A stretch of 64,000 nucleotides of DNA from a bacterium (lineage in GTDB: Bacteria > Zixibacteria > MSB-5A5 > WJJR01). The stretch spans positions 1 to 64,000 of the forward strand of contig JAKAKI010000081.1 in assembly GCA_021813505.1 (NCBI GenBank), in the 5' to 3' direction. The translations under genes and the position numbers were made by a program. Each line of letters opens with the position of its first letter. Position 1 is the first letter of the stretch. The notes below the pieces were generated by a model. The model saw only the letters and a list, made by a program, of their open reading frames with translations, was not told the DNA's origin and searched no databases. This document shows, in pieces, positions 24,261 through 41,399 of the stretch.

Positions 24261-25487
24261 TCAGGGCTCGAGGATGACGGGCGGGGCCACAGGTGCGCGT
24301 TTCAGGTGCTTACGTACGAAAGCTGGAACTTCAAGATTCTCAAGTTCATTGTCCGACATGACCGGCTGGGGCAGGATCGAGCTGTCGCCCATGGCGATGC
24401 CGGCAATGCGGTTGGCGGGTGCCACGACTCGATCGGGATTGAACAGGTCAATCGACGCGCCGGTGACCCTTGGGGTACGGATGGGCTGCATGATCTCCTC
24501 GCGCGCCGGCCGTGAACTGGACTGGCGCGGGCTGCCGAACCCGGTCGCGATCACTGTCACGCATATTTCGTCGCCCAGTCGGGGATCGATGACCGCGCCA
24601 AATATGATATTGGCGTCATCGCCCGCCGCCTCGTTGATGATCGACGTGGCTTCGTTCACATCGTGGAGCGCCAGGTCCGGGCCGCCGGTGACATTGACAA
24701 GGACACCGCGCGCACCGGAGATCGAGACATCTTCGAGCAGCGGCGAGTGGATGGCGGCATAGGCCGCATCCTTGGCCTTGCCGTCGCCGGAAGCACGCCC
24801 CGTTCCCATGATCGCATCGCCCATTTCGCGCATCACCGTCCGCACGTCGGCGAAGTCGCAGTTGATGAGGCCGGGAACCGTGATCAGGTCGGCAATGCCC
24901 TTGGTGGCCTGGTGAAGGACCTCATCACACAGGCAGAAGGCATCGGTCAGGCGGGTGGTCTTGTCGACGATGGACAACAGGCGCTGATTCGGAATGCAGA
25001 TCAGCGTGTCCACACGCTCCTTCAGTTCTTCCAATCCTTCGTCGGCGCGCGTGGACCGGCGTTTTCCCTCGAAGTCAAACGGCCGGGTCACAATGGCGAC
25101 GGTCAAAGCGCCCTGCTGGCGGGCGAGTTCGGCGATGACCGGAGCCGCACCAGTTCCGGTACCGCCGCCCATACCCGCGGTGACGAAGACCATGTCCGCG
25201 CCGGCCAGCGCCGCGCTGACCAGGTCGCGATCCTCATCGATGGCGCGACGGCCGACAGTCGGATCGGCACCCGCGCCCAGGCCGCGGGTCAGTTTGGTGC
25301 CGATTTGAATCCGGCAGGCCGCTTTGGATTGCTCCAGATCCTGGGAATCGGTGTTGACGGTTAAGAACTCGACTCCGGTCAGCCCGGCATCGATCATCCG
25401 GTTGACGGCGTTGCCGCCGGCGCCGCCTACGCCGACGACCTTGAGTTTGGCGGCGAGAACATCCTCCAGTGCGTATTCAAATGTCAT
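24261..25487 (-). CDS. ftsZ: Cell division protein FtsZ
   Basis: FtsZ is the tubulin-like GTPase that forms the cytokinetic ring. The 408-residue protein has [19 protein letters not shown], the GTP signature GGGTGTG (107-113) and NTDSQDL. It ends with the conserved C-terminal peptide [15 protein letters not shown], which binds FtsA and other partners, after a flexible linker. The start [10 protein letters not shown] has AGGGGAGG 6 bases upstream. An in-frame upstream ATG (25562) would add residues encoded by the 9-bp repeat (pattern SYRSYKSY) and is rejected. Last gene of the dcw operon, 52 bases after ftsA. Confidence 0.98.
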
Positions 25488-25515
25488 GTCAGCCTCCCCT
25501 TTTTCAAGACAATCA

Positions 25516-25551
25516 TAGGACTTATATGACCGATAGGACCTATAGAAACTC
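25516..25551. repeat. 9-bp tandem repeat, TAGGACCTA type, between ftsA and ftsZ
   Basis: Units TAGGACTTA, TATGACCGA, TAGGACCTA and a degenerate TAGAAACTC (25516-25551). On the minus strand the last unit supplies the TAG stop codon of ftsA, and the array ends about 20 bases before the ftsZ ribosome-binding site. Confidence 0.85.
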
Positions 25552-26766
25552 TGAGAGAACATTGCCGATGCGCGCCGTCAGTCGGCGGAAGACGCCTTGC
25601 GGCACCGGGGCCGCGGCTGATCCGGCGCTGGCACGGGTGATCAGGCCGACCGCAGTCGCGTTGGCGGCGCCGGTGGCCAGGCCCATCATGCCCAGCGAGT
25701 CCGAGGGGCGTCCGATGCGAACCGGCAGGTCGAAAATCCGTTCGGCCAGTTCGGCCGCTCCGCTGATCGCGGCGCCACCGCCCGCCAGGACCACTCCCGA
25801 TGCGAGCATGTCGGTGATCGGAGCCTTTTGAATCTCGGCCTTCGCCAGCAAGAAGAGTTCCTCGAGGCGTGGGCCGATGATGGAGGCGATCACGCGTTGC
25901 GAGACTTCACGTGGCGCCTGATCGCCCACTCCCGGGACCGACACGGTTTCGGGGGCGGTGACCGACTCCGAGAGAGCGGCACCGGCAGTGAGTTTGATTT
26001 GCTCCGCCGAGTCGATGGTGGTGCGCAGACCGATTGCCAGATCGTTGGTCACGTTGCGTCCACCGAGCGCGATAGTGGCGGTATGCCGAACGGCATCATC
26101 CAGGAACACGGCGACGTCAGTCAGGCCGGCGCCAACATCGACCAGCGCCACACCCATCTCGCGTTCGCGTTCGGAGAGAACCGCGTCAGCGGTCGCGAGA
26201 ATCGAGAGCGTGAGTGAATCGAGCGTGTACCCGGCCTGCTGAGTGCAATGGTGGATGTTGTTGACGGCGAGCGCCGCTGCGGTGACGATGTGGACCTCGA
26301 CTTCGAGACGCGATCCGACCATTCCGATCGGGTCTTTGATGCCGCCCTGATCATCGACGATGAACTCGCGCGGCAGGACATGGATGACCTCACGGTCGGG
26401 CGGAACGGGCACTGCACGGGCCGCCTGCATGACGCGATCGACGTCTTCCTCACCGATAGTGCCGCCGCGTTTCGAGACCGCAACCACGCCGCGTGAATTC
26501 ACGCTGCGGATGTGGTCGCCGGCGATATTGGCGTGAATCGATCCGGGAGGCACGCCGGCCATGAGTTCGGCATCCGCCAGGGCGCGGCGGATGGCCTCCG
26601 AGGTGCGGTCCAGGTGGACGATGACCCCGCGGCGCAAGCCCGGCGACGGGGCTTGACCGACACCGACGATCTTATAGGTCCCATCGGGGTCGACCTCGGC
26701 GGTGATCGCGGTCACCTGCGAAGTCCCGATGTCCAGACCAGTGATGGTTGAGAATGCGGCTGTCAT
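25540..26766 (-). CDS. ftsA: Cell division protein FtsA
   Basis: FtsA is the actin-like membrane tether of FtsZ. The 408-residue protein has phosphate-1 [14 protein letters not shown], the SHS2-like 1C subdomain ([23 protein letters not shown]), phosphate-2 [16 protein letters not shown] and the adenosine motif [17 protein letters not shown]. The C-terminus [16 protein letters not shown] can form the amphipathic membrane-targeting helix but stops abruptly where the 9-bp repeat begins, so its stop codon is repeat-derived. The start overlaps ftsQ as ATGA. Confidence 0.96.
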
Positions 26767-27848
26767 GCGCCCCCCTTGCGAGCGTGTTTGCGAGAGTGAG
26801 TTATCGGTTTTTTGGTCTTGGTGGACTTAGTGGACTTAATGGACGAAGTGGACTTCGTGGACACGGATGGACGTGAGATTGAACTCTTGCTCGGCGAATT
26901 GGGTCGGACTGGAGTCCGCAGCTTGGCCGAGGCAGGGACTGTACCCAGGGAGTCGCCGATCGCCAGCTTGACCGGACTGCCGAGCGTGGTTTTGGGTACG
27001 CCGGTTTCTGTGCGGGCTGCGACCGTGGCCTTGAGGTGCGCTGGGTTCGCCTTCCCGGAATCTTTCACCGCGGCGGAATCTTCGAGCATCGCCAGCCTGC
27101 TGACAATCAACTGGCCGTCGAAGCGCGCGTCGATGGCGCAGGGGCCGGCCAGGATCGTGTCGGGACGGGCCAGCAAAGCCGAGACGTAGCTCGCGTGCTC
27201 GCTCAGATCGCTCCAGCCGATGTTCATGCGGGTCCGGCCATCAGAGCCGACCATGGTCCATCCTGAGAGAGAATCACAACCCAATTCCGAGACGGCATTC
27301 GTGAACCGTCCGTCGGCATCGAGTATCTGCGACCACGCGCCGGCAGCGTGCCGGCTCTGACGGTTGAGCGCATCGCCGTATGTGCCCAAGGGTGCACGCC
27401 AGATCGGGGCGGGCCGTTCAATCGCGGGAGCAGTGAGAATGGAACCATCCACACCGACGCCCTGGCCTCCAACGGTCCAGAGAGTCAGCGGAGTCGGGGA
27501 AATCTGAATCACCAGTTTGTCGGGAAGGAGCAACTGCGCGTGGCAGTCGGCGAGACTGCCGAATTCGGCCTGCAAGCGGGTCTGCAATTCATCCATGTCC
27601 AGCGAGAATAAGTTCGAGTCCGATGGCAAGAAGACCAGAGAACGGGCCTTCGATTCCCATGCACTTGGCCCCTCAATCGCAATCTGGCGAATCTTGACGA
27701 GCGGCCATTTCCTCACAGCGAAGACTCCCGCCATCAGCAGGGCATCGATGACTATCACCCAGAGGCGCCAGGAGCGCCACCAGCGGCGGCGGCGAACGGT
27801 CGGCGTCAGACGGACGACACCGGGGATGGTGAGAGTGGCGCCCTTCAC
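26763..27848 (-). CDS. ftsQ: Cell division protein FtsQ (POTRA domain)
   Basis: FtsQ is a bitopic divisome protein that links early and late components with FtsL and FtsB. The 361-residue protein has a basic cytoplasmic N-terminus (TVRRRRWWRSWR), a transmembrane helix about 29-45 and a POTRA domain starting VKIRQIAIEGPSAW. After the beta domain comes a long Ser/Thr/Lys-rich tail (about 290-361), including STKSTSSIKSTKSTKTKK encoded by the GTGGAC repeat at 26821-26865. The start is GTG, overlapping the murC stop as GTGA. The family is weakly conserved; position between murC and ftsA supports the call. Confidence 0.88.
   Translation of the reverse strand: MKGATLTIPGVVRLTPTVRRRRWWRSWRLWVIVIDALLMAGVFAVRKWPLVKIRQIAIEGPSAWESKARSLVFLPSDSNLFSLDMDELQTRLQAEFGSLADCHAQLLLPDKLVIQISPTPLTLWTVGGQGVGVDGSILTAPAIERPAPIWRAPLGTYGDALNRQSRHAAGAWSQILDADGRFTNAVSELGCDSLSGWTMVGSDGRTRMNIGWSDLSEHASYVSALLARPDTILAGPCAIDARFDGQLIVSRLAMLEDSAAVKDSGKANPAHLKATVAARTETGVPKTTLGSPVKLAIGDSLGTVPASAKLRTPVRPNSPSKSSISRPSVSTKSTSSIKSTKSTKTKKPITHSRKHARKGGA
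26821..26865. repeat. 9-bp tandem repeat, GTGGAC type, in ftsQ
   Basis: Units GTGGACTTA, GTGGACTTA, ATGGACGAA, GTGGACTTC and GTGGACACG (26821-26865), followed by a partial ATGGACG. On the minus strand it is in frame and codes the Ser/Thr/Lys tail of FtsQ. Same family and period as 16889-16933. Confidence 0.9.
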
Positions 27849-29242
27849 GAGGCAACCCCCACCGTGTTCAGACCTGCGACGATCCTGGGCGCCATGCGGT
27901 AGATTGAGCCCGCACCAATAGTCATAATCAAATCACCGGGGTGCGCCATCTCGAGCGCAAGATTCACGACATCGTCCAATTGTCCGGCCAGATGGCTCCC
28001 GAGCGAAAGTCTGGCGGATTTCAATTGATCCGATATTAGAGCCGAGGTGACCCCGGGCATCGGTTGCTCACGCGCGGGGTAGATTGGCGCCAGGATCACA
28101 CCATCGGCACCAGACAGAACCTCGGCGAACTGGCGATAGAAGTCGCGGGTGCGTGAGAACAGATGCGGCTGGAAAATCGCGATTAGCTTCCCCTTGCCAT
28201 CCAGCCACAGACGACCGGCAGCAAGCGCGGCTTTGACTTCCGTAGGATGATGACCGTAGTCATCAACGACGGTGATTCCCGCTTTGGCGCCGATGAGTTC
28301 GAAACGGCGTCCGACTCCGGTGAAACTTCGCAAGGCATCGTGGATGGCGCCGAAGTCGATTTCCATTTCCAGGGCAGCCGCCGCGGCCGCGAGTGCGTTC
28401 TCGGCATTGTGCCGTCCGGGCAGCATGACTTCGACATCACCCACCCGCTTGCCATCGGCGTGCAACTCAAACCGGCCGGAGCGGGAGGTGAGATTCAAAC
28501 CGACCGCGCGGACATCGGCACCCTCGGAGAAACCGTAAGTGCGGTGGCGGCGGTTGATGCGAGCTTGAATCGCCGCGAGTGCGGGAGAGTCGATATTGGT
28601 CAGCACGGAACCGTAGAAGGGCACGCGCTGGAAGAACTGAACGAAGTTATCCTGCAAATCCGCCAGCCCGGAGTAACAGTCGAGGTGGTCCTCCTCGAGA
28701 TTGGTGGCGAGCGCGATAGTCGGGTGCAGGCAGAGGAAGGAATGATCGTATTCGTCGGCCTCGGCCACGAGATACTGGCTTTGGCCGACCTGCGCATTGG
28801 CATCGAGACTGATAACGCGTCCGCCAACAATCACGGTGGGATCGAGACCGGCGCGCATCAGGATGTGGCCGATCATTGACGTCGTCGTTGTCTTGCCATG
28901 GGTACCGGCGATGCCGACGGAGAATTTCAAGCGCATCAGCTCGCCGAGCATTTCGGCGCGGCGAATGACAGGGACACCAGTGCGTAGAGCCGCCGCCACT
29001 TCGGGATTGTCCGATTGCACCGCGGAGGAAATCACGACGACATCGGCGCCGGTTATGTGAGACGCTTCGTGGCTCAAGTGCACGGGGATGCCAAGGTGCT
29101 TGAGGCGGTCAACGGTCTCGGACTCGGCGATATCGGAACCGGTGATCGAAAATCCCATGGCGAGCAGAACTTCCGCCATGCCGGACATACCAGCACCGCC
29201 GATGCCGACGAAATGCAACCGTTTGACGCGACGCGCCCACAT
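27845..29242 (-). CDS. murC: UDP-N-acetylmuramate--L-alanine ligase
   Basis: MurC adds L-alanine to UDP-MurNAc, the first step of stem-peptide assembly. The 465-residue protein starts MWARRVKRLHFVGIGGAGMS with the N-terminal UDP-binding glycine motif. ATP-binding GTHGKTTTTSMIG lies near residue 110, and DYGHHPTEVKAAL is characteristic of MurC. The ATG at 29242 is 4 bases past the murG stop. An ATG-like start at 29341 would overlap murG by 95 bases and is not favoured. It overlaps ftsQ by 4. Confidence 0.96.
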   Translation of the reverse strand: MWARRVKRLHFVGIGGAGMSGMAEVLLAMGFSITGSDIAESETVDRLKHLGIPVHLSHEASHITGADVVVISSAVQSDNPEVAAALRTGVPVIRRAEMLGELMRLKFSVGIAGTHGKTTTTSMIGHILMRAGLDPTVIVGGRVISLDANAQVGQSQYLVAEADEYDHSFLCLHPTIALATNLEEDHLDCYSGLADLQDNFVQFFQRVPFYGSVLTNIDSPALAAIQARINRRHRTYGFSEGADVRAVGLNLTSRSGRFELHADGKRVGDVEVMLPGRHNAENALAAAAAALEMEIDFGAIHDALRSFTGVGRRFELIGAKAGITVVDDYGHHPTEVKAALAAGRLWLDGKGKLIAIFQPHLFSRTRDFYRQFAEVLSGADGVILAPIYPAREQPMPGVTSALISDQLKSARLSLGSHLAGQLDDVVNLALEMAHPGDLIMTIGAGSIYRMAPRIVAGLNTVGVAS

Positions 29243-29246
29243 ATGG

Positions 29247-30353
29247 CTAATTGTCCCCAAGAATCGTCCTTTCGGCAAGAGAAATGACGTGGGTTGCGAT
29301 GCGATCGGCAGCATCGGGACGTCCCAGGGCGCTGTTGGCACTACTCATGGCTTCCAAACGCGAAGTGTCACTGAGAAGGCCGACTGCCTGATCAAGCAAT
29401 GAAACGGTGGGAAGCTGGCGGTCTTCATACAGAATCGCCCCACCGGCCTCAACTAAGACACGGGCATTGTGGGTCTGATGGTCGGCGGTGGCGAACGGGA
29501 ACGGCACCAGAATGGCCGGGCGTCCAACAGCGGCGAGTTCGGAAATGGTCAGGGCACCGGCGCGGGCGATGATCACATCGGCGGCGACAAATGCCTCCGT
29601 CATGGCATCGGTGAATTCGAAGTCACGGACGACCCATCCAGCGGCCGGGGTATGATCCCAGTCGATGCTGTGGCGGCCTGTCTGCCAGAGCACGGTTATC
29701 GGCGGCTTCGGACAGACTTTCTTAAGGGCTGTGGCGACATTCTGATTGATCGAGCGGGCGCCACCGGAGCCGCCCGTGACCAGGATGACCCTCTCCGCTT
29801 CCGACAATCCCCAATTCTTGCGGGCGAGGTTGCGTGCCATTGTCGCAAGCCGGGGATCGACCGGGTTACCGACGAGCTCGATTGACTTCGCCTTGGGTAA
29901 TTTCGGGCGGGTTTGCTCGAACGCAATAAAGACGGTTTGTGCCTTGGAGGAGAGCCAGCGTGTCACCAGACCGGGGAGGCGGTTTTGCTCCTGGAGAACG
30001 TAGGGAATCTGGCGTGAGCGGGCAGCGCGGATCGGGAAGTACGATGCATACCCGCCACAGCCGACGGCGACATCGGGATGGAACTCGGCTACAACCGTAC
30101 GCGCCTGGCTGTTGGCGTGGACATTGCTCCAGAGAGCGCCGAAGTTGCGCCAGATGCGGCTGCGCATGAATCCGCGCGCCGGCAGACCGATGTAGCGATA
30201 TCCGCGTCCTGCGACCACTTTCGCTTCCAATCCCTTGTCACCACCGACGAACAAGAACTCTGCACGATTTTTTTGGCGGCTGATGGCCTCCGCAATGCGG
30301 ATGGCCGGAATCAAGTGCCCGCCGGTGCCACCCGCGGCCATCAGGACGCGCAT
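29247..30353 (-). CDS. murG: Lipid II synthase MurG
   Basis: MurG transfers GlcNAc from UDP-GlcNAc to lipid I on the inner face of the membrane. The 368-residue protein has the N-terminal glycine loop MAAGGTGGHLIPAIRIAEAI, the G-loop CGGYASYFPIRAA, VTGGSGGARSINQ and the donor-binding LTISELAAVGRPAILVPFPF followed by DHQTHNA. AGGAG lies just upstream of the ATG. It is 7 bases after ftsW. Confidence 0.97.
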   Translation of the reverse strand: MRVLMAAGGTGGHLIPAIRIAEAISRQKNRAEFLFVGGDKGLEAKVVAGRGYRYIGLPARGFMRSRIWRNFGALWSNVHANSQARTVVAEFHPDVAVGCGGYASYFPIRAARSRQIPYVLQEQNRLPGLVTRWLSSKAQTVFIAFEQTRPKLPKAKSIELVGNPVDPRLATMARNLARKNWGLSEAERVILVTGGSGGARSINQNVATALKKVCPKPPITVLWQTGRHSIDWDHTPAAGWVVRDFEFTDAMTEAFVAADVIIARAGALTISELAAVGRPAILVPFPFATADHQTHNARVLVEAGGAILYEDRQLPTVSLLDQAVGLLSDTSRLEAMSSANSALGRPDAADRIATHVISLAERTILGDN

Positions 30354-30360
30354 GCCACTC

Positions 30361-31518
30361 CTACCACGACGCCTCCCGGAACCGGGAAACGTTCAGTACG
30401 ACACCCCAGGCAACTGCCGTGCATAGGAGCGAGGACCCGCCATAACTGACAAATGGCAGAGGCAGGCCGGTCGCCGGTGAGATTCCGGTTACAACCGCCG
30501 CATTCAGGCCGGCATTCACCAGGAGTGATCCGCCGAATCCCATGACCAGGAGGTAACCAAATCGATCAGGAGCGCGCGAGGCCACTTTCCAGCCCCGGAA
30601 GACCAGAACTGCGAATGCCAGCAAGACTCCGGTCATGCCGGCCAGGCCAAGCTCCTCCCCCACCGTGGCGAGGATGAAATCGGTGTGTGGCTCGGGGAGA
30701 TACAGCATCTTCGCCCGGCCGTTTCCCAACCCTTTGCCAATCAAACCACCGGAACCGATCGCGATTTTGCTTTGCTGCACCTGATAGGAACCGCCGGTGC
30801 TGCTGAGTCCGTTTTCCCAATCGTCGACGCGGGCCTTCTTGTAACCAAGTCCAAAGACCAGGATCACTGCTGCCAGAACGCCAACAACGACTGCGGGCAT
30901 GAGATGCCGCCAGCGTGCGCCTGCCGCGATGAGCATGATCCCGATCGTGGCCCAGGTGGTCAGGACGCCGGAGAACTCCGGCTCGAGAAGCAGCAGACCG
31001 CTCGCGATAACGAGGACGACCATGAGCGGGATCCAGCGCTTGAGATTGGTGAGTTCATCGCCCCGTTTCGCGAGGAAGGCGGCGGCGTAGAGAATCAAAG
31101 TCAAGCGGAAGGCTTCGAATGGCTGGAGATTGAACCAGCCGAGTGGAATCCAGCGATGGGCGCCATTGACCGGGGGGGAGAACAGAACAATGATCAGCCC
31201 GGTCAAGCCGACGAGCAGTAGCGCCGGAGCCGACTTCCGCAGACGGCGGTAGTCGAGTCGCGAGAGGGCCAGCATGAGGAGCGCCGCCAGTGCCCACCAG
31301 ACTACCTGGCGTTTCCAGAAGAAGCCGGGGGCGCCGTAGCGCTTCTCGGCCAGCATCACCGATGCGGAGAGAACCATTACGGTCCCCAGCCCCATGAGCG
31401 CCATGGTGGCCATCCAAATCCACCGGTCGGCTTTGGGCATAGCCACTCGCGGAGTCGACGCGGCGGCGTCCTCGCCGACGGAAAACGGTGCGGTCCAAGT
31501 TGAGGGAATGGCGGACAT
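30361..31518 (-). CDS. ftsW: SEDS peptidoglycan glycosyltransferase FtsW
   Basis: FtsW polymerises lipid II at the septum together with FtsI. The 385-residue protein has about ten hydrophobic segments. SEDS landmarks include KRQVVWWALAALLM, PPVNGAHRWIPLG (the conserved NGAxRWI motif), PLMVVLVIASGLLLLEPEFS (PD/E-F-S region), GLIGKGLGNGRAKMLYLPEP followed by HTDFILATVGEELG, and PFVSYGGSSLL. The ATG overlaps the murD stop by one base (TGATG). The N-terminal 30 residues are hydrophilic and not conserved. Confidence 0.96.
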   Translation of the reverse strand: MSAIPSTWTAPFSVGEDAAASTPRVAMPKADRWIWMATMALMGLGTVMVLSASVMLAEKRYGAPGFFWKRQVVWWALAALLMLALSRLDYRRLRKSAPALLLVGLTGLIIVLFSPPVNGAHRWIPLGWFNLQPFEAFRLTLILYAAAFLAKRGDELTNLKRWIPLMVVLVIASGLLLLEPEFSGVLTTWATIGIMLIAAGARWRHLMPAVVVGVLAAVILVFGLGYKKARVDDWENGLSSTGGSYQVQQSKIAIGSGGLIGKGLGNGRAKMLYLPEPHTDFILATVGEELGLAGMTGVLLAFAVLVFRGWKVASRAPDRFGYLLVMGFGGSLLVNAGLNAAVVTGISPATGLPLPFVSYGGSSLLCTAVAWGVVLNVSRFREASW

Positions 31519-32957
31519 CAGGATTCCTGCGCCTCCCGCGCGAAGTCGAGTACGAGTTGCTTGAAGACACGTCCTCGGTGCTCGTAGTTATCAAACTGAT
31601 CGAAGCTGGCACAGCCGGGTGAGAGCAGGACGACATCGCCGGGCTGGGCGATCTCGGTGGCAGCGGCAAAGGCATCATCGAAGCGGGGAACGGTGCGATA
31701 CGGGATCTCCGTACCGAGTTCGACTTCGAGCTTGGGTGCTGCCTTTCCGGTGAAGACTAAAGCGCGTGCCCGCTTTTTCAATTCCGGGGCGAGGACACCG
31801 AAGTCGGTTCCCTTATCGAGTCCACCCATGAGGATTACCAGTGGCCGGTCAAACGAGATGATCGCTTTGGCAACGGCATCGGGATTGGTGGCCTTGGAAT
31901 CATTGACAAAGGCAATGTTGTTCACGTCCGCCACATGTTCGAGGCGATGCTCGACACCCCGGAAGGATTGAAGTCCGCTCGAGATTTCATCGGGCGTGAG
32001 GCCATCGGCCAGAGCCATCGCGACGGCGGCGGCCGCGTTCATGCGATTGTGCTCGCCGGGAGGGATCAATTTATTGGAGCCGGGAATTACGCCCGATGTC
32101 TTACCAGTGTCGAAGCGGAGAAGTGCGCCATCCAGCCAGACACCGGGAGAGACGCGACCGGTGGCGGAAAACCACCAGCGGCGCGCCCGTCCGGTGGGGC
32201 GGTCCTTGTCCCATTGGACGAGCGTCGGATCGTCGGCATTGAGAATGGCGGCATCAGCCGACGTCTGATTTTCGAACAGCCGAAATTTCAGGCGAATGTA
32301 TTCTTCGTAGGTGCCATGGCGGTCAAGATGATCGGGGGACAGGTTTAGAAGCGACGCCACGTGAGGACGGAAATCCTGGATGCACTCGAGTTGGAATGTC
32401 GAGACCTCGAGGATGGCACGGTCGGCGGCGGTGAGGTTCGCGGCGAATTCGGAAAATGCCCGGCCTATGTTTCCACCAACTTCGGAGGATTTGCCCGCGC
32501 CTTTGTAGATGGCACCGAGCCAGGCGGTGGTTGTGGTCTTACCATTGGAACCGGTGACGGACAGTACCGTACCGGCGGTCAGCCAGAAGGCGACCTCGAG
32601 TTCGGAGAAGACCGGAAGGCCTCTCTGACGGGCGGTGGCGACCAGTGGATTGGCAGACAGGACTCCGGGACTGACAACTACAAAATCGGCGTTTTCAAGC
32701 CCCCGCATCGTGTGTCCGCCTGTCTCAAAGGCGATACGGTTCTGCTCGAGGGAGGCGACCTGACCGGCCACGGCGGACCGGTCCTTGGCTTCCGACACGA
32801 AGACACGGGCCTTCGCGTCGCTGAGCATACGGGCGGCAGCCAGCCCGGAACGCGCCATGCCGATGATCAGCACGGACCGTCCCGCCACCCGATCCGCGAA
32901 GGGGCGGAGGTTGTCGGTGATGGTGCGGCGGTCATCCAGTGCGCTGGCGAAGATCAT
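31518..32957 (-). CDS. murD: UDP-N-acetylmuramoyl-L-alanine--D-glutamate ligase
   Basis: MurD adds D-glutamate to UDP-MurNAc-L-Ala. The 479-residue protein shows the N-terminal SVLIIGMARSGLAAARML, ATP motif VTGSNGKTTTTAWLGAI, LNLSPDHLDRHGTYEEYIRL, GVEHRLEHVADVNNIAFVND followed by SKATN, and ILMGGLDKG. It ends with LLSPGCASFDQFDNYEHRG, the C-terminal MurD signature. AGAGG sits 8 bases before the ATG. Length slightly above the usual 440-460. Confidence 0.97.
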   Translation of the reverse strand: MIFASALDDRRTITDNLRPFADRVAGRSVLIIGMARSGLAAARMLSDAKARVFVSEAKDRSAVAGQVASLEQNRIAFETGGHTMRGLENADFVVVSPGVLSANPLVATARQRGLPVFSELEVAFWLTAGTVLSVTGSNGKTTTTAWLGAIYKGAGKSSEVGGNIGRAFSEFAANLTAADRAILEVSTFQLECIQDFRPHVASLLNLSPDHLDRHGTYEEYIRLKFRLFENQTSADAAILNADDPTLVQWDKDRPTGRARRWWFSATGRVSPGVWLDGALLRFDTGKTSGVIPGSNKLIPPGEHNRMNAAAAVAMALADGLTPDEISSGLQSFRGVEHRLEHVADVNNIAFVNDSKATNPDAVAKAIISFDRPLVILMGGLDKGTDFGVLAPELKKRARALVFTGKAAPKLEVELGTEIPYRTVPRFDDAFAAATEIAQPGDVVLLSPGCASFDQFDNYEHRGRVFKQLVLDFAREAQES

Positions 32958-32984
32958 TTGTGATCCCTCTGCAGAGTGATACCC

Positions 32985-34070
32985 TCAGCGAATCTTCAGC
33001 GTCGACAACGTGATCAGGGCGAAGATCGCCCCCAGGATCCAGAATCTGACGACGACCTTTGGTTCAGGCCACCCCAGCAGTTCAAAGTGATGGTGGATGG
33101 GAGCCATCTTGAAGATGCGCTGCCCGGTCCACTTGAAATAGCCAACCTGAATGATTACCGAAAGCGCCTCGGCAACGAAGACACCGCCGAGGATGACCAG
33201 CAGCAATTCCTTCTTGGTGAGAACCGCCAGAGCGCCTATGGCGCCACCGAGCGCCAGGGAGCCGGTGTCGCCCATGAAGACCTCGGCCGGATGGGTATTG
33301 AACCACAGGAAACCCAGGGCGGCCCCGACCGCGGCGCCGCAGTAGATGGTCAATTCTCCGACTCCCGGCAGGAACGGAATCGACAGGTAGCGCGAAAAGT
33401 CGACACGGCCGGAGACGTAGGCGATTCCGGCGAAGGCTAAGAAGGCGATGGCCGAGAGCCCGATGGCCAGGCCATCGAGACCGTCGGTCAAATTGACTGC
33501 ATTCGAAGTCCCGGCAACGATCAGGAGCACGAAGGGGATGAAGAAGATGCCCAGCGGGAGCACCAGATTCTTGAAGAAAGGAACGTCTGTCTCGGTGGTG
33601 AATTGTGCGGTGGGCGGCCAGGCGTAGAGGATTATTCCGAGAGCCAGTCCCAGAATCAACTGGCCTGCCATTTTCTTCTTCGCGACGAGTCCTTTGGATT
33701 GGCGGCGAACGACCTTGAAGTAGTCATCGACCCAGCCGATCAAGCCCATGCCGGCGGTGACGCCAACGATGAGCTGGATGTAGCGGTTGGTCAGATCTGC
33801 CCAGAGCAAGGTCGGGACGAGAATGGACAGGATCACGATGAGGCCGCCCATCGTCGGGGTTCCCTCTTTGGCGTAATGCGTCTTGGGACCTTCACGACGG
33901 ATCGACTGATTGACTTGGTGGCGCTTGAGCGCCGCAATGATATAGGGACCCAGCCAGATCGAGATGACAAGGGCGGTGACGACGGCGTAGGCCGCGCGAA
34001 ATGTGATGTAGCGGAAGAGATTGAACACCGACACGGTGTCGTGCAGGGGATAAAGGAGGTGGTAGAGCAT
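32985..34070 (-). CDS. mraY: Phospho-N-acetylmuramoyl-pentapeptide-transferase
   Basis: MraY transfers phospho-MurNAc-pentapeptide to undecaprenyl phosphate, making lipid I. The 361-residue polytopic protein (E. coli 360) carries GPKTHYAKEGTPTMGGLIVI, the Mg-binding GWVDDYFKV, SNAVNLTDGLDGLAIG, NTHPAEVFMGDTGSLALGG and the PIHHHFELLGWPEPKVVVRF cytosolic loop. The ATG at 34070 (MLYHLLYPLH) has AGGAG about 10 bases upstream; the open frame extends upstream without support. Confidence 0.97.
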   Translation of the reverse strand: MLYHLLYPLHDTVSVFNLFRYITFRAAYAVVTALVISIWLGPYIIAALKRHQVNQSIRREGPKTHYAKEGTPTMGGLIVILSILVPTLLWADLTNRYIQLIVGVTAGMGLIGWVDDYFKVVRRQSKGLVAKKKMAGQLILGLALGIILYAWPPTAQFTTETDVPFFKNLVLPLGIFFIPFVLLIVAGTSNAVNLTDGLDGLAIGLSAIAFLAFAGIAYVSGRVDFSRYLSIPFLPGVGELTIYCGAAVGAALGFLWFNTHPAEVFMGDTGSLALGGAIGALAVLTKKELLLVILGGVFVAEALSVIIQVGYFKWTGQRIFKMAPIHHHFELLGWPEPKVVVRFWILGAIFALITLSTLKIR

Positions 34071-34129
34071 TGGTCGAGTTCTCCTGTCAGCGACAACAAG
34101 CCGGCCCGATCGGGCTGGCAAGCCAGATT

Positions 34130-35527
34130 CTACGGTCTCTTTTTCCCCGCCAGATACTCGTGAACACGAGCGACGATTTCTTCGAATTTCTCCGAGTGTG
34201 ACGCCTTGAACAGGATGACATCACCCGGCTGGACAAGCTTGTTGAGCGCGATCGCGGCGGCATCGCGATTCCGACATGTCACGATCCGCGCCCCTCCCCC
34301 GCTCGATTTCACCCTGGAGGTATACTCCTGCGCCAACTCGCCGACTGTGATGACGATGTCTGCGTGGCGCACGGCCTTCTGTCCGACACTGCGATGCCAC
34401 TTCTTCTCGGATGGGCCCAGTTCGCGCATCGCTCCGAGGACGGCGATCCGGCGCGCGGCATTGGGCCACACGGCGAGGGCCTCGAGCGCGGCGATGGTCG
34501 CGGTCGGACTGGCGTTGTAGCAATCCTCCAGAAGAGTCACGGCTTTGATGCGTGTGACGAGCGAACGCTGGCCCACTGGTTTCACTTTGCGGAGAGCCGC
34601 AGCAATCTCCTCGAAGGGAATCTTGAAGTGGCGGGCGACGGCGATTGCGGCGAGCGCATTGGCGGCATTGTGGCTTCCCGGCAATGGAAGCTCGAATTGG
34701 TGGCGGCCATTGACGGTGAAGGCGATGCCGCCGCGGGGAGAGACGGTGACGGGGCCACAGACGAAATCGGCATCGCGGCCGGTCGCATAGGTGATGGTCT
34801 GGCGGTCCCAACGATCCCGCCAGCGCCGTTGAAAAGGATCGTCGTTGTTTAAGAACGCAATAGTCGAGGGATCCGAGTGATCGAAGAGTTCGCGCTTGGC
34901 CTTGGCGATAGCAGCGAGCGAACGCATCTGCAACAGGTGCGAGGGGGCGATGCGCGTGAGGACTCCCCAAGCCGGCCGGACGATTTCCGTCAGGCGCGCG
35001 ATTTCACCGGGCGAGGACATGCCGAATTCCAGCACGCCGATGCTCTCGACGCTCTGAGCCCGCTGACTACGCGCCAGAAGCGTGAGCGGTATCCCGATCA
35101 GATTGTTGTAATTCCCGGGAGACTTGAAGACGCGGAATCGGGCCGTGAGGGCGGCGGCGATCAGTTCCTTGGTTGTGGTCTTGCCGACCGAACCGGTGAC
35201 GGCGACATAGCGTGTCGGGAACAGCCTGCGATATTCGGCGGCGAGATCCCCCATGGCGGTGAGGGGATCTTCGACCCCGATCACCGGAACCGGCCAGTTG
35301 CGCCAGCGTTTGGCACGAAGCCGGTCGGCGATCACCGCACCGGCGCCATTTTCGACGGCCTGGCGGGCGAAGCGATGTCCATCGACGTTTGCGCCCCGCA
35401 GGCAGACGAAGGCATTGCCGGGGCGGATGGCGCGCGAGTTGATCGAGACACCCCGGAGTTTGGCCCGGGGGCTCCTGGCTCCGACGATCTGCCCATTGGT
35501 AATCTGGCAGGCGTTCTCAACGGTCAT
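34130..35527 (-). CDS. murF: UDP-N-acetylmuramoyl-tripeptide--D-alanyl-D-alanine ligase
   Basis: MurF adds D-Ala-D-Ala to the UDP-MurNAc tripeptide. The 465-residue protein starts MTVENACQITNGQIVGAR, with an N-terminal domain showing INSRAIRPGNAFVCLRGANV, the ATP loop VTGSVGKTTTKELIAAAL, FKSPGNYNNLIGIPLTLL, and LEDCYNASPTATIAALEAL (the DCYNANPxS region). A GTG nine bases upstream (35536) is an alternative start. Neither start has a strong Shine-Dalgarno. It follows murE after 42 bases. No ddl gene is in this cluster to provide its D-Ala-D-Ala substrate. Confidence 0.96.
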   Translation of the reverse strand: MTVENACQITNGQIVGARSPRAKLRGVSINSRAIRPGNAFVCLRGANVDGHRFARQAVENGAGAVIADRLRAKRWRNWPVPVIGVEDPLTAMGDLAAEYRRLFPTRYVAVTGSVGKTTTKELIAAALTARFRVFKSPGNYNNLIGIPLTLLARSQRAQSVESIGVLEFGMSSPGEIARLTEIVRPAWGVLTRIAPSHLLQMRSLAAIAKAKRELFDHSDPSTIAFLNNDDPFQRRWRDRWDRQTITYATGRDADFVCGPVTVSPRGGIAFTVNGRHQFELPLPGSHNAANALAAIAVARHFKIPFEEIAAALRKVKPVGQRSLVTRIKAVTLLEDCYNASPTATIAALEALAVWPNAARRIAVLGAMRELGPSEKKWHRSVGQKAVRHADIVITVGELAQEYTSRVKSSGGGARIVTCRNRDAAAIALNKLVQPGDVILFKASHSEKFEEIVARVHEYLAGKKRP

Positions 35528-35569
35528 AGTGATCACAATAATATCGAAACGCGAAAACCGCGATTAAGA

Positions 35570-37120
35570 TCAAGATGGCGGCGGGTCCCCCCCTGGACCC
35601 ACCGCCGAACCGGGAGTAATCCCGCCCCGCTTCCCTTGCGGGTTGTGCGGCGGGTGCCCGCCCGCCGCAAGTATCCCTGCCGCCGTTTCCTGGTCGGAGA
35701 ACCGATGGAAGACACCGGCGATTTCTTGAGTCTGTTCGTGGCCTTTCCCGCACAGAAAAACCACATCACCGGGATTCGCATCGGTGACCGCCCGTTCGAT
35801 GGCACGGTACCGATCGGGGTCGCAGACAACCGGCGCCCCCTTTGTAAAGCCCGCTTTGACTTCCTCGATAATTGCCAGCGGATCCTCCGATCTGGGATTG
35901 TCGGAGGTGAGGTAGATTTGGTCAGCCCACTCTTCCACTGCGTGTGCCATTTCCGGGCGCTTGCCGCGATCACGATTGCCGCCGGCGCCGAATAGAACGC
36001 GCAGTTTGCCCCGCACCAACGGACGCGCCGCCGAGAGCACGGCATCGAGGGCATCCGGGGTGTGTGCATAATCAACAAAGACATCGAATGGCGCCGAACT
36101 GGGAATGCGTTCGAGCCGTCCCGAGATTCCAGGGAATGCGGCCAGCCCGGCCGCGACTTTCCCGCCGGGGAGTCCCGCTCCCCACGCGGCCGCGGCCATT
36201 GCCGCCAGATTGGCATGATTAAAGCGGCCCCACAGAGGAGAGAAGAACGGGTGCACTTCCCCGCCGAGCAAAAGCTGGCCGCGCGTGCCGTCGAAGTTGT
36301 GAGAGGTGATTTCCATCCCGACGTCAACGTCCTTGCGGCGCGCCGAGTAGCGAATCACCCGCGTGGAGCGGGAGGCGCGCACGAAGACGTCCGCCGACGC
36401 ATCGTCAACGTTGATGACGGCAAACGTGTCCGGGCCGGACAGATTTTCGAAAAACAAAGATTTGACGCGCCGGTATTCCTCAAACGTCTTGTGGAAGTCG
36501 AGATGGTCGCGGGTGACGTTGGTGAAGATCCCGGCGCGAAAGTGAATTCCCCAGGCACGGTCGAGGGCGATGGCGTGGGAGGAAACTTCACAGGCGACAT
36601 TCCGCACACCGTCGGCACGCATCCGCTCCAGCATAGAGACCAGATCGGGCGATTCGGGCGTCGTGCGCGGTGCGGGGATCGACTGGTTTCCCCAGCGGTA
36701 CGTGATCGTGCCAATCAGTCCGGCCGGGATGCCGGCGGCACTCCACAACGCTTCAAGGCCGGCCGCAATCGTCGACTTGCCATTGGTGCCGATGACACCG
36801 AAAAGGTCCATTCTCTGATCCGGATTCTCGTAGAAACGCAACGCCGCTTCGGCCATGGCGCGGCGCGCATTCGGAACGATGATCACCGGGATGTTGAGCG
36901 GCAACGCCCGTTCGGCCACCACCGCCACGGCACCATTGATCGCCGCCTGAGCGGCGAACTCGGCGCCATCGGCCTTGGCACCGGGGAGCGCGAAGAACAA
37001 ATCGCCGGGATGCACCTGCCGGGAATCATACGCGAGGCCCGACACACGCAATGCGCCCGTGGCGTCGGCGGGTATCTCTAGCACGCCCGCCAGGGTCCTG
37101 GTGTCAGCCATGCGGATCAT
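35570..37120 (-). CDS. murE: UDP-MurNAc-L-Ala-D-Glu--meso-DAP ligase
   Basis: MurE adds the third stem-peptide residue. The 516-residue protein has P-loop GTNGKST (111-117; Ser in place of the commoner Thr), CEVSSHAIALDRAWGIHF, GRLERIP, VDYAHTPDALDAVL and DNPR (407-410). DNPR is the motif of meso-diaminopimelate-adding enzymes. The ATG at 37120 overlaps the ftsI stop as ATGA, which favours it over the ATG at 37138. After the conserved end (FSDQETAAGIL) about 30 extra residues rich in Gly, Pro and His follow, encoded by REP-like palindromes at 35577-35668. Confidence 0.96.
   Translation of the reverse strand: MIRMADTRTLAGVLEIPADATGALRVSGLAYDSRQVHPGDLFFALPGAKADGAEFAAQAAINGAVAVVAERALPLNIPVIIVPNARRAMAEAALRFYENPDQRMDLFGVIGTNGKSTIAAGLEALWSAAGIPAGLIGTITYRWGNQSIPAPRTTPESPDLVSMLERMRADGVRNVACEVSSHAIALDRAWGIHFRAGIFTNVTRDHLDFHKTFEEYRRVKSLFFENLSGPDTFAVINVDDASADVFVRASRSTRVIRYSARRKDVDVGMEITSHNFDGTRGQLLLGGEVHPFFSPLWGRFNHANLAAMAAAAWGAGLPGGKVAAGLAAFPGISGRLERIPSSAPFDVFVDYAHTPDALDAVLSAARPLVRGKLRVLFGAGGNRDRGKRPEMAHAVEEWADQIYLTSDNPRSEDPLAIIEEVKAGFTKGAPVVCDPDRYRAIERAVTDANPGDVVFLCGKGHEQTQEIAGVFHRFSDQETAAGILAAGGHPPHNPQGKRGGITPGSAVGPGGDPPPS
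35577..35668. repeat. Palindrome cluster forming the 3' end of murE
   Basis: GGCGGCGGGTCC (35577-35588) pairs with GGACCCACCGCC (35595-35606) with one mismatch. GCGGCGGG (35647-35654) pairs with CCCGCCGC (35661-35668). Between them is CGGGAGTAATCCCG. The cluster lies inside murE, codes its Gly/Pro-rich tail and reaches to within 7 bases of the stop. Confidence 0.75.
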
Positions 37121-39219
37121 TGCAACGTTAACCGGCATGTACGGTCCTCAGTCATCGGGGTGCCTGCGGGCGGGTCCTGGGCGACAATGGTTCCGGCGCC
37201 GGAGACCTCCCACTTGGCCCCGAGATCACGCAAGGGCCCGAATGCGTCACGCAAGCTCTTGCCGGTGAGATCGGGCCAGGTTTCAACAAAGGGAACGGCG
37301 GTCTTCGACTTCACGGTGGCGGTTGGAACCAGACGGTTCCATCCAACCTCGAATCCCTGGGATTGGTCGGCAGCCGGGACGGCGTCAAGCTCGTCTTCCA
37401 TCTGGCTGGCAGAGGTCTCGGCGCGTGCTTCCATGAAGGAAGGAGCGACCACCGCCACCAATTGCCGTGCCCAGTCATCGCGCGCGTCGCGAATACTGTC
37501 GGTTGGGAGAAGGCCGGGATCAAACTGGTAATCCGGCATCAGATCGTTTTCGTCACCGGCGGCCCCACGGCGGACGGCGTTCAACAGAACCGGCGCAGCG
37601 GTATATCCGCCGTAGTGGATCGGCTTGGGTTCATCGAGAATTACCAAGCCGAGGACACGCGGCTTGTCGGCGGGATAGAAGCCGACGAATGTCGCCATGT
37701 ACTTGGATTTGTCGTAGCGATGTGTCTTCAGATCGGGCTTCTCGGCCGTGCCTGTCTTGCCGGCGATTGGATATGCCGGATCCCAAATGACCTTGGCGGT
37801 TCCCTCACGGACGACTCCGGTCATGATCTTCTGCATGAGGTGGACGACCTCGGGATCCAGCACACGTCTTCCCGACGTGCGTGAGGGGATGAACCGCCCG
37901 TCAGCGGTCCCGACCGCATCGAGCAGATGCGGGCGCACCAGATATCCGCCATTCGCCACCGCGGAATAGGCGGTCGCGAGCTGGAGCGGTGTCACGGCAA
38001 CGCCGTGGCCGATGGACATCGTCGCAATGTTGATCTCGGTGTGTTTCTGGCGGGCAATATGGCCGCGGGACTCGCCGGGCAGGTCGACGCCGGTGGAGTC
38101 GCCGAAGCCAAAACGGCGAATCCAATACTCGAGCCGTCCGGGCGGCATCAGATTCGCGATTCGGGCGGTGGCCACGTTCGAAGAAACGATGAATGCTTCG
38201 GCGGTCGTCACGATGCCGTGGCGCTTGTCGTCATGAAGCACACGCCCTGAAAAAGTTCCCTGGCCATTGCCGCCATCGAACCGCCGGTTCAAATCGACGA
38301 GCCCATCAGAGAGGGCGCCAGCGTAGGCGACGAGCTTGAATGTCGAGCCGGGCTCCATGACATCTGTGACGAGGCGATTCTTGCGGGCTTTGCGACCGAG
38401 ACCATCGGGATCGTAGTCCACCATTGCCAGGATAGCGCCGGTGTGCGGATCCATCAGAAGTGCCATGCCGGAGTTGGCCCGCCACTTCTGCACCGCGGCC
38501 ACGAGTTCCTCGGAAAGAATCGACTGGCTGCTCCAGTCCAACGTCAGGTGTAACCGCGCACCGGGCCGGACTGGCTTGACCGGGACGGGATCGAGGGAGA
38601 AACGGCGGCCAGACGCATCCCGGAGATAAACGCCTTCGCCATCGGCGCCGGACAACACGCGATCGTATGAGAGTTCCAACCCCGAGGCACCATCGATGGC
38701 ATCATTGACGAATCCGATGGGATCGGTGACGTCGGTTTGCACGCAGGGATAGACGCGGTCGTACTCGTGACTTGCCTGAATCCCTGGAAGCTTCCAGGAG
38801 CGGATCAGTTGGGCAGTTGGCTGGTCGCAACGGCGGGCGAGCGGGGTGAAGACGCCGCTGCGCTTCCCCCAAGCGGCCGCGAGGCTGGTCGCGGGCGAAC
38901 CGAGGATAGGAGAGAATTTGGCGGCCAGCAGTTGCGCCGAAGTTTCGCGATCCGGATAGGCCGCAAACGATTCCTTTTCGACACTGACGGCCAGCAGCCG
39001 GCCGCGGCGATCGACAATGTCACCGCGTGGCGCGGGGAGCCGGATCGTGCGGTCGCTCTGCTCCCCCGCCATATCCGCAAGGGGAGTTTGGTTGATGACT
39101 TGCAAGTAGAATGCGCGGGCCCAAATCGCCCCCCAGACGCACAAACCGGCTACCAGCAGAAGTCGCCGGCGGCGGGCGAATGTCGCTTCCAGTTGGCGTG
39201 TTCTTTGTCCCTGAACCAT
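37117..39219 (-). CDS. ftsI: Septal peptidoglycan transpeptidase FtsI (PBP3) with PASTA domain
   Basis: FtsI cross-links septal peptidoglycan as partner of FtsW. The 700-residue class B PBP has a basic cytoplasmic start, a membrane helix about 20-38, and the dimerisation domain RGDIVDRRGRLLAVSVEKES. Active-site motifs are STFK (Ser292, Lys295), SSN (346-348) and KTGTA (488-492). A C-terminal PASTA domain (about 632-700, PDLTGKSLRDAFGPLRDLGA) is present, which E. coli FtsI lacks but SpoVD/PBP2x-type proteins carry. It starts 59 bases after ftsL and overlaps murE. Confidence 0.96.
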   Translation of the reverse strand: MVQGQRTRQLEATFARRRRLLLVAGLCVWGAIWARAFYLQVINQTPLADMAGEQSDRTIRLPAPRGDIVDRRGRLLAVSVEKESFAAYPDRETSAQLLAAKFSPILGSPATSLAAAWGKRSGVFTPLARRCDQPTAQLIRSWKLPGIQASHEYDRVYPCVQTDVTDPIGFVNDAIDGASGLELSYDRVLSGADGEGVYLRDASGRRFSLDPVPVKPVRPGARLHLTLDWSSQSILSEELVAAVQKWRANSGMALLMDPHTGAILAMVDYDPDGLGRKARKNRLVTDVMEPGSTFKLVAYAGALSDGLVDLNRRFDGGNGQGTFSGRVLHDDKRHGIVTTAEAFIVSSNVATARIANLMPPGRLEYWIRRFGFGDSTGVDLPGESRGHIARQKHTEINIATMSIGHGVAVTPLQLATAYSAVANGGYLVRPHLLDAVGTADGRFIPSRTSGRRVLDPEVVHLMQKIMTGVVREGTAKVIWDPAYPIAGKTGTAEKPDLKTHRYDKSKYMATFVGFYPADKPRVLGLVILDEPKPIHYGGYTAAPVLLNAVRRGAAGDENDLMPDYQFDPGLLPTDSIRDARDDWARQLVAVVAPSFMEARAETSASQMEDELDAVPAADQSQGFEVGWNRLVPTATVKSKTAVPFVETWPDLTGKSLRDAFGPLRDLGAKWEVSGAGTIVAQDPPAGTPMTEDRTCRLTLQ

Positions 39220-39278
39220 ATGCCGTCCAATGGCTGTCCGTGCGCGTCCTGCGTTTGGGCCCGGCGCCTCTCTACTTT

Positions 39279-39674
39279 TCAGTAATTCCTTTGATCTGTC
39301 CCCGCTTGTGTCAGCCGCAACGATCCCGATTGGCCACTGCGCAACGATGGCAATTCATCGGCTGGATGCCCCGGAATCCCAGGCCGCGGCGCGCAGGCGA
39401 AGCGAACGCGCTGGCTTTCGGGAGTTGGGATCATCCCCAGATGATTGATAGCGATATCCTCGATGCGCGTTCGCGATGACAAGCGGGAGTTCTCCGCGAG
39501 CAAGGCGACCCGCACCCGGTCCATCTCGGTGATGTGTGTCTGGAGCCGGTCGATGCGATGTCCCAGTTGCACGACGGTGTATCTCTGCCAGACCCATAAA
39601 GTGGCAATGAGAAACGCGGTGAGCCACCAGCGGGGACCGAAGACCTCGAGCGCAGCGCGCAACCGGCCGGTCAT
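39279..39674 (-). CDS. ftsL: FtsL-like divisome protein
   Basis: A 131-residue bitopic protein between rsmH and ftsI, the standard place of ftsL. A transmembrane helix (WWLTAFLIATLWVWQRY, about 17-34) is followed by a coiled-coil heptad region (LGHRIDRLQTHITEMDRVRV) and ends IEDIAINHLGMIPTPESQRV, the typical FtsL/FtsB pattern before the tail. GGGGGA lies 5 bases before the ATG at 39674, which also overlaps the rsmH stop as ATGA. The final 30 residues are unconserved. Sequence similarity in this family is always weak; position and topology carry the call. Confidence 0.85.
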   Translation of the reverse strand: MTGRLRAALEVFGPRWWLTAFLIATLWVWQRYTVVQLGHRIDRLQTHITEMDRVRVALLAENSRLSSRTRIEDIAINHLGMIPTPESQRVRFACAPRPGIPGHPADELPSLRSGQSGSLRLTQAGTDQRNY

Positions 39675-40615
39675 TTTATCCCCCATGGTGACTCGGAGCC
39701 GTGCACTTCGAATACTCTCATTCGGGCTGCTTGCGCGCGCGGGTTGGCGGCGCATTCCGCCTCGGTGGGACGCAGCACGTGCTTATGAACGAGGTGGCCA
39801 CGCGGTTTGGCACCACAGCGGCATTGCCCGTAAATCCTGGGGCAGTCGCACTTGCGGGCGGCCTCGCGCATGATCGTCTTAACGATTCGGTCTTCGAGCG
39901 AGTGGTAGGCGATCACAACCAGCCGCGAACCTTCGGAGAGCAAGTTCAGCGCCGAGGTCAGCCCCATGGTGATGGCGTCGAGTTCGGAATTGCTGTGCAC
40001 ACGCAGGGCCTGGAAGACTCTGGCGGCGGTGCGTCCCCAGATTCGTCCGTTCGGACCCACGACCGCGATTATCAAATCCCGCAGTTGGGTGGTCGTCTGG
40101 ATGGGTTGCGTGGAGCGAAGCCTGATGATGCGCCGGGCAATGCGGCGTGCGCTGGGCTCTTCGCCGAATTTCTTGAAGACATCTGCGAGTTCTTCTTCGG
40201 ATGCTGAGTTCACCCAGTCCGACGTCGGTTCTCCGCGGGATGTGTCGAATCTCAAATCGAGCGGACCGTCGAGACGATAGGCAAATCCCCTGCGGGGATT
40301 GTCCAACTGAATCGACGAGAGCCCGAGGTCAAAAAGGGCACCGTTGATCTTTTCGATGCCGAGATCCTCGAAGATCTTCGCGAGTTCACGGTAGTCGGCG
40401 TGAACGACAATCGCACGGCTGCCGAATCCGGTGAGACGGCGCGCCGCGAGCGCCGCGGCTTCGGGATCGCTGTCCGTGCCCACGAGCTTCGCTTTGGGAC
40501 TCAATCGATTCATGATCAATTCCGCGTGACCGGCGTTGCCGATTGTCGCATCGAAGTAAATTCCATCGAGATCAGTGATCAGTTCACGAAGTACTTCATC
40601 TGCCATGACCGGCAA
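39671..40615 (-). CDS. rsmH: 16S rRNA (cytosine(1402)-N4)-methyltransferase RsmH
   Basis: RsmH (MraW) methylates C1402 of 16S rRNA. The 314-residue protein has PVMADEVLRELI, IYFDATIGNAGHAELIM (SAM motif I), ALFDLGLSSIQLDNPRRGFA and YRLDGPLDLRFDTSRG. SLEDRIVKTIMREAARKCDC lies near the C-terminus. The start is TTG at 40615: GGAGG lies 8 bases upstream, and no ATG or GTG exists between it and the mraZ stop. The conserved H of the usual HIPV start is the untranslated CAT codon just before the TTG. The first internal ATG (three codons on) would cut into the conserved motif. Confidence 0.95.
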   Translation of the reverse strand: MPVMADEVLRELITDLDGIYFDATIGNAGHAELIMNRLSPKAKLVGTDSDPEAAALAARRLTGFGSRAIVVHADYRELAKIFEDLGIEKINGALFDLGLSSIQLDNPRRGFAYRLDGPLDLRFDTSRGEPTSDWVNSASEEELADVFKKFGEEPSARRIARRIIRLRSTQPIQTTTQLRDLIIAVVGPNGRIWGRTAARVFQALRVHSNSELDAITMGLTSALNLLSEGSRLVVIAYHSLEDRIVKTIMREAARKCDCPRIYGQCRCGAKPRGHLVHKHVLRPTEAECAANPRAQAARMRVFEVHGSESPWGIK

Positions 40616-40656
40616 ATGGCCGCCCTCCAGCGGCGGTCGATCCGTACCGGCGGCCT

Positions 40657-41094
40657 TTATAGGAGTAATTGGGCCGCAACCTCCTCGTACGACTTCCCGA
40701 ATCCCTCAACGTACTGATCGAATTTTTCGGTGCCCCAGAACTCGATGCGGCGGATCATACCCAGGATCAGGACGTCCTTTTTGATACCGACTTTATCGGT
40801 GAGCGCTTGGGGGATGAGAATCCGCCCCTGCGTATCCGGCGCGACTTCGACGGTGTTGGCCATCAGGACGCGGAGGACATAGTTGGCTTCCGGGTGGGCG
40901 AAGTTGAAGTTCTCGAACTTGGCTTCGACTCGGCGCCATTCTTCGTGGGGAAACAGGTAAAGGCAGCCGCCCAACCCCAAGGTGAGGTAACACGTATTGA
41001 GATTAACGTCGGAGGACTGACGAAGCCGGCTGGGTATCTGAACCCGGTTCTTGGAATCCAGAGTACCAGTGAAATTTCCGAGGAAGCCAGACAT
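40657..41094 (-). CDS. mraZ: Transcriptional regulator MraZ
   Basis: MraZ is the AbrB-fold DNA-binding protein that opens and regulates dcw clusters. The 145-residue protein has two SpoVT-AbrB repeats, LDSKNRVQIPSRLRQ (about 12-27; DSKNR where DxKGR is usual) and VAPDTQGRILIPQALTDKVG (about 85-105). It ends with WGTEKFDQYVEGF. It is first in the operon, 41 bases before rsmH. The 10-bp-spaced GTGG boxes at 41247-41280 upstream are its probable autoregulatory operator. Confidence 0.96.
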   Translation of the reverse strand: MSGFLGNFTGTLDSKNRVQIPSRLRQSSDVNLNTCYLTLGLGGCLYLFPHEEWRRVEAKFENFNFAHPEANYVLRVLMANTVEVAPDTQGRILIPQALTDKVGIKKDVLILGMIRRIEFWGTEKFDQYVEGFGKSYEEVAAQLLL

Positions 41095-41205
41095 CGTGTC
41101 GGTTACACTTTCGTTTTGGGGCTATGCGATGCCACTAACCACCGCCACCAAGATGGATCTTGTTGTCAGACTGCCGGAGACTGACCCTCCCAAATGGGAG
41201 CTAAT

Positions 41206-41307
41206 AGTTTACAGTTCAATCACTTGAGTGAAAATCGGTGAAAATCCCACTTTCCACCACTAGTCGCCACTCGACACCACAGTAAGCTCAATCACAGTAC
41301 CGGTCAA
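41206..41307 (-). promoter_or_regulatory. Candidate dcw operon promoters
   Basis: Two candidates flank the MraZ boxes on the minus strand. P1 is TTGACC (41307-41302), 17 bases, TACTGT (41284-41279). P2 is TTTTCA (41234-41229), 17 bases, TAAACT (41211-41206). Neither is consensus. An inverted repeat CTCCCA-AA-TGGGAG (41187-41200) lies in the leader. Start sites are not determinable by eye. Confidence 0.45.
41247..41280 (-). promoter_or_regulatory. MraZ operator: four 10-bp-spaced GTGG boxes
   Basis: On the minus strand GTGG occurs at 41280-41277, 41270-41267, 41260-41257 and 41250-41247, exactly one helical turn apart, the last as GTGGGA. MraZ of E. coli is known to bind TGGG-type direct repeats with this 10-bp period upstream of mraZ. 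Two further direct repeats, GTGAAAATC at 41228-41236 and 41238-41246 on the plus strand, continue the same 10-bp phase. Confidence 0.8.
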
Positions 41308-41340: not shown

Positions 41341-41399
41341 ACCGCTATTCCCTTAGAAGTCATTGGGAGTATTTGTGTTCACGGCAAGGGAATAGCGGT
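41341..41399. repeat. Perfect 14-base inverted repeat upstream of mraZ and the C25 gene
   Basis: ACCGCTATTCCCTT (41341-41354) and AAGGGAATAGCGGT (41386-41399) are exact reverse complements separated by 31 bases. It lies in the divergent region 41095-41604, which otherwise holds the dcw promoter/operator, a 9-bp repeat array and the C25 leader. Possible operator pair, hairpin or small mobile element end; no T-run follows directly. Confidence 0.7.

Follow-up and report, generated by a model that had tools for sequence, protein, structure and literature searches.

Eraso et al. reportedly worked on the mraZ promoter of E. coli in 2014, and Fisunov et al. are said to have described the MraZ site of the Mollicutes in 2016. 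In Burkholderia cenocepacia, the accessible part of PMC7761207 describes a MraZ site formed by four 7-nt repeats with 3-nt spacers, which lies past the -10 element and overlaps the dcw transcription start; binding of MraZ to the promoter fragment was shown, and an octamer was proposed. In the Mollicutes the site is given as (AAAGTGKN3)3 in the excerpt of PMC5282649. According to the available text of PMC8475190, which also cites work on MraZ autorepression in E. coli, the other cluster genes of M. genitalium go up when MraZ is lost. A literature search for a structure of MraZ with promoter recognition found no MraZ paper among those listed, and no mention of the repeats was found in the accessible sections of PMC5089854.

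Here we describe four exact GTGG boxes in 10-bp phase (41247-41280) on the minus strand, which is the mraZ strand, in a 64-kb window (the whole stretch of DNA that was analysed) from Candidatus Zixiibacteriota. The original prediction of four such boxes, one helical turn apart before mraZ, therefore holds in exact phase, and the ladder very probably serves MraZ as operator for the dcw genes. As far as the partial text on B. cenocepacia goes, both sites have four GTG-motif repeats at 10-nt spacing; they differ in that box 1 of the window appears to overlap the -10 itself, and in the leader of about 150 nt that separates the window's boxes from mraZ. The Mollicutes site, in the excerpts of PMC5282649 and PMC8475190, shares the unit length and the GTG core, and its consensus agrees with the class unit AAAGTGGNNN, whereas its repeat number is given as three instead of the four of the window.

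The mraZ promoter of E. coli K-12 (NC_000913.3, outside the training set) scores 34.0 with the model trained on the class of the window, its units being TCAGTGGGAA, ATTGTGGGGC and AAAGTGGGAA plus a weaker in-phase TAAGGGGTGA. There too, GTGG(G) boxes with a 10-bp period follow a TTGACA element, and the distance from TTGAC to one of the perfect GTGG boxes, the third in E. coli and the fourth in the window, is 57 nt in both. However, E. coli has three perfect GTGGG boxes with a weaker fourth (GGGG core) at the downstream end, while the extra perfect box of the window is at the promoter end, and the E. coli boxes are about 45 nt from the start codon compared to about 186 in the window. The E. coli boxes had been set apart earlier as TGGG-type; since they read GTGGG, this contrast is one of notation only. 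Given these GTGGG boxes and the four-repeat site in the available description of B. cenocepacia, neither the box type nor the box number is special. Four boxes are not new, and the window site is a clean example of a known control element.

The ladder, its proposed promoter and the operon behind it

Read on the minus strand from 41310, the region runs TCC TTGACC GGTACTGTGATTGAGCT TACTGT GGTGTCGA GTGGCGACTA GTGGTGGAAA GTGGGATTTT CACCGATTTT CACTCA (Table 1). The direct repeats with GTG(G) core at 10-bp spacing are on the coding strand, upstream of mraZ and the dcw genes and after a promoter whose -10 we infer. The -35 and -10 are separated by a spacer of 17 nt. TACTGT agrees with the -10 consensus at 3/6 positions and is thus weak on its own. 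A consensus promoter scan did not list the proposed mraZ promoter, because TTGACC/TACTGT reaches 8/12 consensus matches and 9 were required; the sole promoter-like site listed was at 41208-41235 on the plus strand.

Table 1. Coordinates of the probable mraZ operator region in the window. Minus-strand boxes start at their higher coordinate (41280, 41270, 41260 and 41250).
Feature	Positions	Strand	Basis
Proposed -35, TTGACC	41302..41307	-	sequence; TTGAC position in class ladders
Proposed -10, TACTGT, overlapping the first two bases of box 1	41279..41284	-	sequence and spacing only
MraZ box 1, GTGG, unit GTGGTGTCGA	41277..41280	-	sequence and class model
MraZ box 2, GTGG, unit GTGGCGACTA	41267..41270	-	sequence and class model
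MraZ box 3, GTGG, unit GTGGTGGAAA	41257..41260	-	sequence and class model
MraZ box 4, AAAGTGGGA, best fit to class unit AAAGTGGNNN, 10.9 bits	41247..41250	-	sequence and class model
Two GTGAAAATC copies, 10 bp apart; rejected as operator part	41228..41246	+	motif survey, class model, offset counts
Leader, about 150 nt, boxes to mraZ	41095..41246	-	no structure beyond chance in shuffles
mraZ, presumed regulator at the boxes; two PF02381 matches	40657..41094	-	Pfam and alignment
dcw operon, mraZ to ftsZ, 16.8 kb	24261..41094	-	gene order and Pfam

The genome has one MraZ locus. The encoded protein carries D13xxxR17 and D87xxxR91, and D13, R17, D87 and R91 are invariant in nine aligned MraZ sequences; the two DxxxR halves are what we take to be the motif of an intact MraZ. 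The sequence matches four distinct solved MraZ sequences (e.g., 1n0e, 9qlr, 9sx6, 9qlg), and the MraZ of a Candidatus Zixiibacteriota MAG, a close relative, shows 98% identity over 94 residues. Behind mraZ the order is rsmH, an ftsL-like gene (its match to Pfam DivIC is weak and does not reach the cut-off), an ftsI-like penicillin-binding protein with a PASTA domain, murE, murF, mraY, murD, ftsW, murG, murC, an unassigned gene in the place of ftsQ, ftsA and ftsZ, with gaps of at most 59 nt and many genes overlapping. The operon length of 17 kb given originally fits that of Table 1.

In the genome sequence (3,892,948 bases, 97% complete), the pattern of four TGG every 10 bp has one match, the mraZ site, while the reversed control has two, both elsewhere. 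For the exact three-box pattern there are three matches, of which two fall in the mraZ ladder and one elsewhere, and its reversed control also has three. A wider MraZ regulon was discarded, the sole extra three-box place being C28:12229-12252 and the total being no higher than that of the control. Within the 64-kb window, the ladder scores 28.2 with a box model whose training set excluded the order of the window (82 genomes, families f1 and f2 left out); the next unrelated score is 3.1, shifted registers of the same ladder being set aside.

Other elements surround the operator. Upstream of the -35 there is a perfect 14-nt inverted repeat (ACCGCTATTCCCTT at 41341-41354 and AAGGGAATAGCGGT at 41386-41399) with 31 nt between its arms, which looks unconstrained as a stem because its right arm is changed in the congener G001 without matching changes. 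A direct repeat (AGTTCAATCAC at 41213-41223 and AGCTCAATCAC at 41285-41295, 72 bp apart) flanks the operator. The intergenic region is shared with a divergent neighbour on the plus strand (41566-44055), which encodes a C25-family (gingipain-like) peptidase with a propeptide domain (PF01364, PF08126).

Boxes in the congener and across the class

Between window and congener, 0/16 positions are changed in the box cores, 2/24 in the spacers, 3/39 in the promoter, 2/21 in the GTGAAAATC repeat region, 10/125 in the leader and 28/175 further upstream. Since no more than 6 to 16% of the flanking positions are changed, unchanged boxes are weak evidence by themselves; the numbers agree with constraint on the boxes and are too small to show it.

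A broader comparison is provided by 98 genomes from genus to class level, in 92 of which MraZ was found. One of these (G053, match to 61 residues only) was left out throughout, and the congener entered by a 5' partial match. The shuffle, period and congener tests covered 89 upstream regions, to which G005 and G027 were added to give 91 for the position models. The class model used for the unit, the TTGAC and CAC offsets and the E. coli score was trained on all 91, window included, and gave the class unit cited above; for box counts, each family was left out in turn.

By the three- or four-box test (400 shuffles each), a ladder is present at p ≤ 0.01 in 69/89 regions, and eight (G003, G007, G009, G025, G026, G089, G093, G061) fail both tests at 0.05. 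Strict sums at period 10 are passed by 41/89 regions with three boxes and 36/89 with four, compared to 0 to 2 of 89 at periods 6-9 and 11-15; on the opposite strand none of the 89 passes at any of the ten periods. With position models from other families, 80/91 regions score above the 99th percentile of the controls (910 block-shuffled sequences) and 88/91 above the 95th. This 10-bp series in the relatives supports the claim that a MraZ-type ladder is conserved in the lineage. Three or four boxes are found in 72/91 regions (three in 39, four in 33), two in 10, five in 6, and six, one and none in one each, while three or more occur in 44/910 controls.

The distance to the promoter was followed in the 83 of 91 ladders with a four-box score of at least 8.3. 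In 78/83, TTGAC occurs at most 75 nt upstream of the last box, with a peak of offsets at -56 to -60 (46 of the hits) and a mode at -59/-60; the window has -57. The distance to the start codon is more varied: several f1 and f2 relatives resemble the window in this respect, and in 36/83 ladders the last box is at most 40 nt from the start codon and has a Shine-Dalgarno-like core. Such a last box is often at the same time the Shine-Dalgarno sequence in families f8 and f18 (e.g., L066, L043), AAAGTGGAGGA standing just before the start codon, so that MraZ (on DNA) and the ribosome (on RNA) would share the same bases.

Some relatives depart from the common layout. G003 (L098/L006) is from the family of the window, is complete and keeps the common order of mraZ and rsmH, yet a GTGG ladder was sought in the 300-400 nt upstream of its mraZ and not found; its operator may have been lost or moved. 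With the full model, G002 (L005, about 809-868) and G021 (L093) each have six in-phase units above threshold, i.e., ladders longer than that of the window. Four GTGG boxes at 11, 10 and 11 bp in G027 (L097) are missed by the strict 10-bp model. GTGA was considered as a new box type for family f12 and dropped: the ladders read TTGGTGAAAA, which keeps the TGG core in phase. A second five-step ladder in G021 (C390:1634-1676) is probably due to chance; no gene of at least 80 aa reads on from it in the stretch examined. Far from mraZ, 10-bp series of TGGGTTATTATGGGTTTTC type occur in G029 (contigs C156, C168, C204) and in G045; Tandem Repeats Finder did not identify one such stretch (L103) as a tandem array.

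Other readings of the region

Past the last box there are two GTGAAAATC copies (41228-41236 and 41238-41246). They read on the plus strand and the GTGG boxes on the minus strand, a difference that the original prediction did not mention. The original prediction that two such repeats follow in phase is right as to the repeats and their phase, and finds no support as to their being operator parts. Their CAC/GTG cores (41228 and 41238) continue the exact phase of the four boxes, and both cores are kept in the nearest relative. One could imagine a six-step ladder of four GTGG and two facing GTG, on which MraZ assemblies would meet head-on over the start, or, less boldly, a direct competition with RNA polymerase at the promoter-end box, which would reach into the -10, whereas the E. 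coli boxes lie downstream; we regard this as very unlikely. We think it very unlikely that the extra boxes and the in-phase pair form a longer operator that would serve a larger MraZ ring or a graded control, even if five- or six-unit ladders exist in 9/91 regions with the full model and 7/91 with the own family left out. The strand of the pair speaks against it, and the motif GATTT(T/A)CAC is found in only 2/89 upstream regions, both of the window's genus: twice in the window and once in the congener, whose second copy has two changes; the pair is eroding. Conserved in-phase units beyond box 4 were not found among the 83 ladders, an in-phase CAC past the last box (2/83 at +10, 2/83 at +20) being no commoner than at other offsets (0 to 4, with 4 at +9), and the class model gives at most one modest unit (5.2) on the GTGAAAATC strand. 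The repeats were rejected as boxes on the grounds of strand, restriction to the genus and lack of CAC excess. Moreover, four is a normal number of boxes for this class and is described, in the part of PMC7761207 at hand, for B. cenocepacia with a proposed octamer, so that a larger ring is not needed, and no evidence for one was found. The number of boxes might possibly allow the operon to be controlled in a graded way.

That the region works as RNA, with a hairpin of box 3 and GATTTTCACC followed by a T-rich stretch as a leader attenuator, seems highly improbable to us. A terminator-like site is present at 41259-41236 on the minus strand (two such sites found vs 0.6 expected), and fold prediction for the first 58 nt yields this hairpin. 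However, its energy is ordinary (z -1.30, 22/200 shuffles as good), as is that of the whole leader (z -0.83, 41/200), and the GATTTTCAC partner is found only in the window's genus. At gathering thresholds, nothing in the window matched Rfam. With folds no better than shuffles, the attenuator was set aside.

That the GTGG run is a functionless accident of G-rich DNA can practically be dismissed: although GTGG is common locally (7 copies within 300 nt upstream of mraZ) and GTGG-N6-GTGG pairs are near chance over the 64-kb window (6 found vs 2.7 expected, not significant), none of 20000 dinucleotide shuffles of those 300 nt reached four perfect boxes, the class-wide ladder is confined to one period and strand, and its distance from the promoter is fixed. 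The significance rests on the run of four, not on two-box pairs.

Proposed mechanism and meaning for the lineage

We infer binding, repression and the exact start, and we are highly confident that the four-box site is the operator by which MraZ would repress its own operon. What is observed is the boxes, their phase and conservation, their fixed place after TTGAC, and the presence of just one MraZ gene, whose two halves are both intact. The literature on B. cenocepacia, the Mollicutes, M. genitalium and E. coli, as far as the partial sources reach, fixes the most likely mechanism. MraZ subunits would bind the same face of the DNA at the four GTGG boxes, one helical turn apart. As the boxes would begin at the -10 and extend about 30 bp downstream, bound MraZ would cover both the -10 and the transcription start. 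RNA polymerase would then be kept off or stopped, and mraZ would be lowered together with the division and cell-wall genes behind it.

The site extends the known MraZ ladder to a largely uncultured lineage, Candidatus Zixiibacteriota, with the same unit, period and promoter distance across 19 families of the class and in E. coli. The finding is a confirmation of a conserved mechanism and reveals none that is new. In the window the extra box is at the promoter end and in E. coli at the downstream end, a difference that could be compared by experiment.
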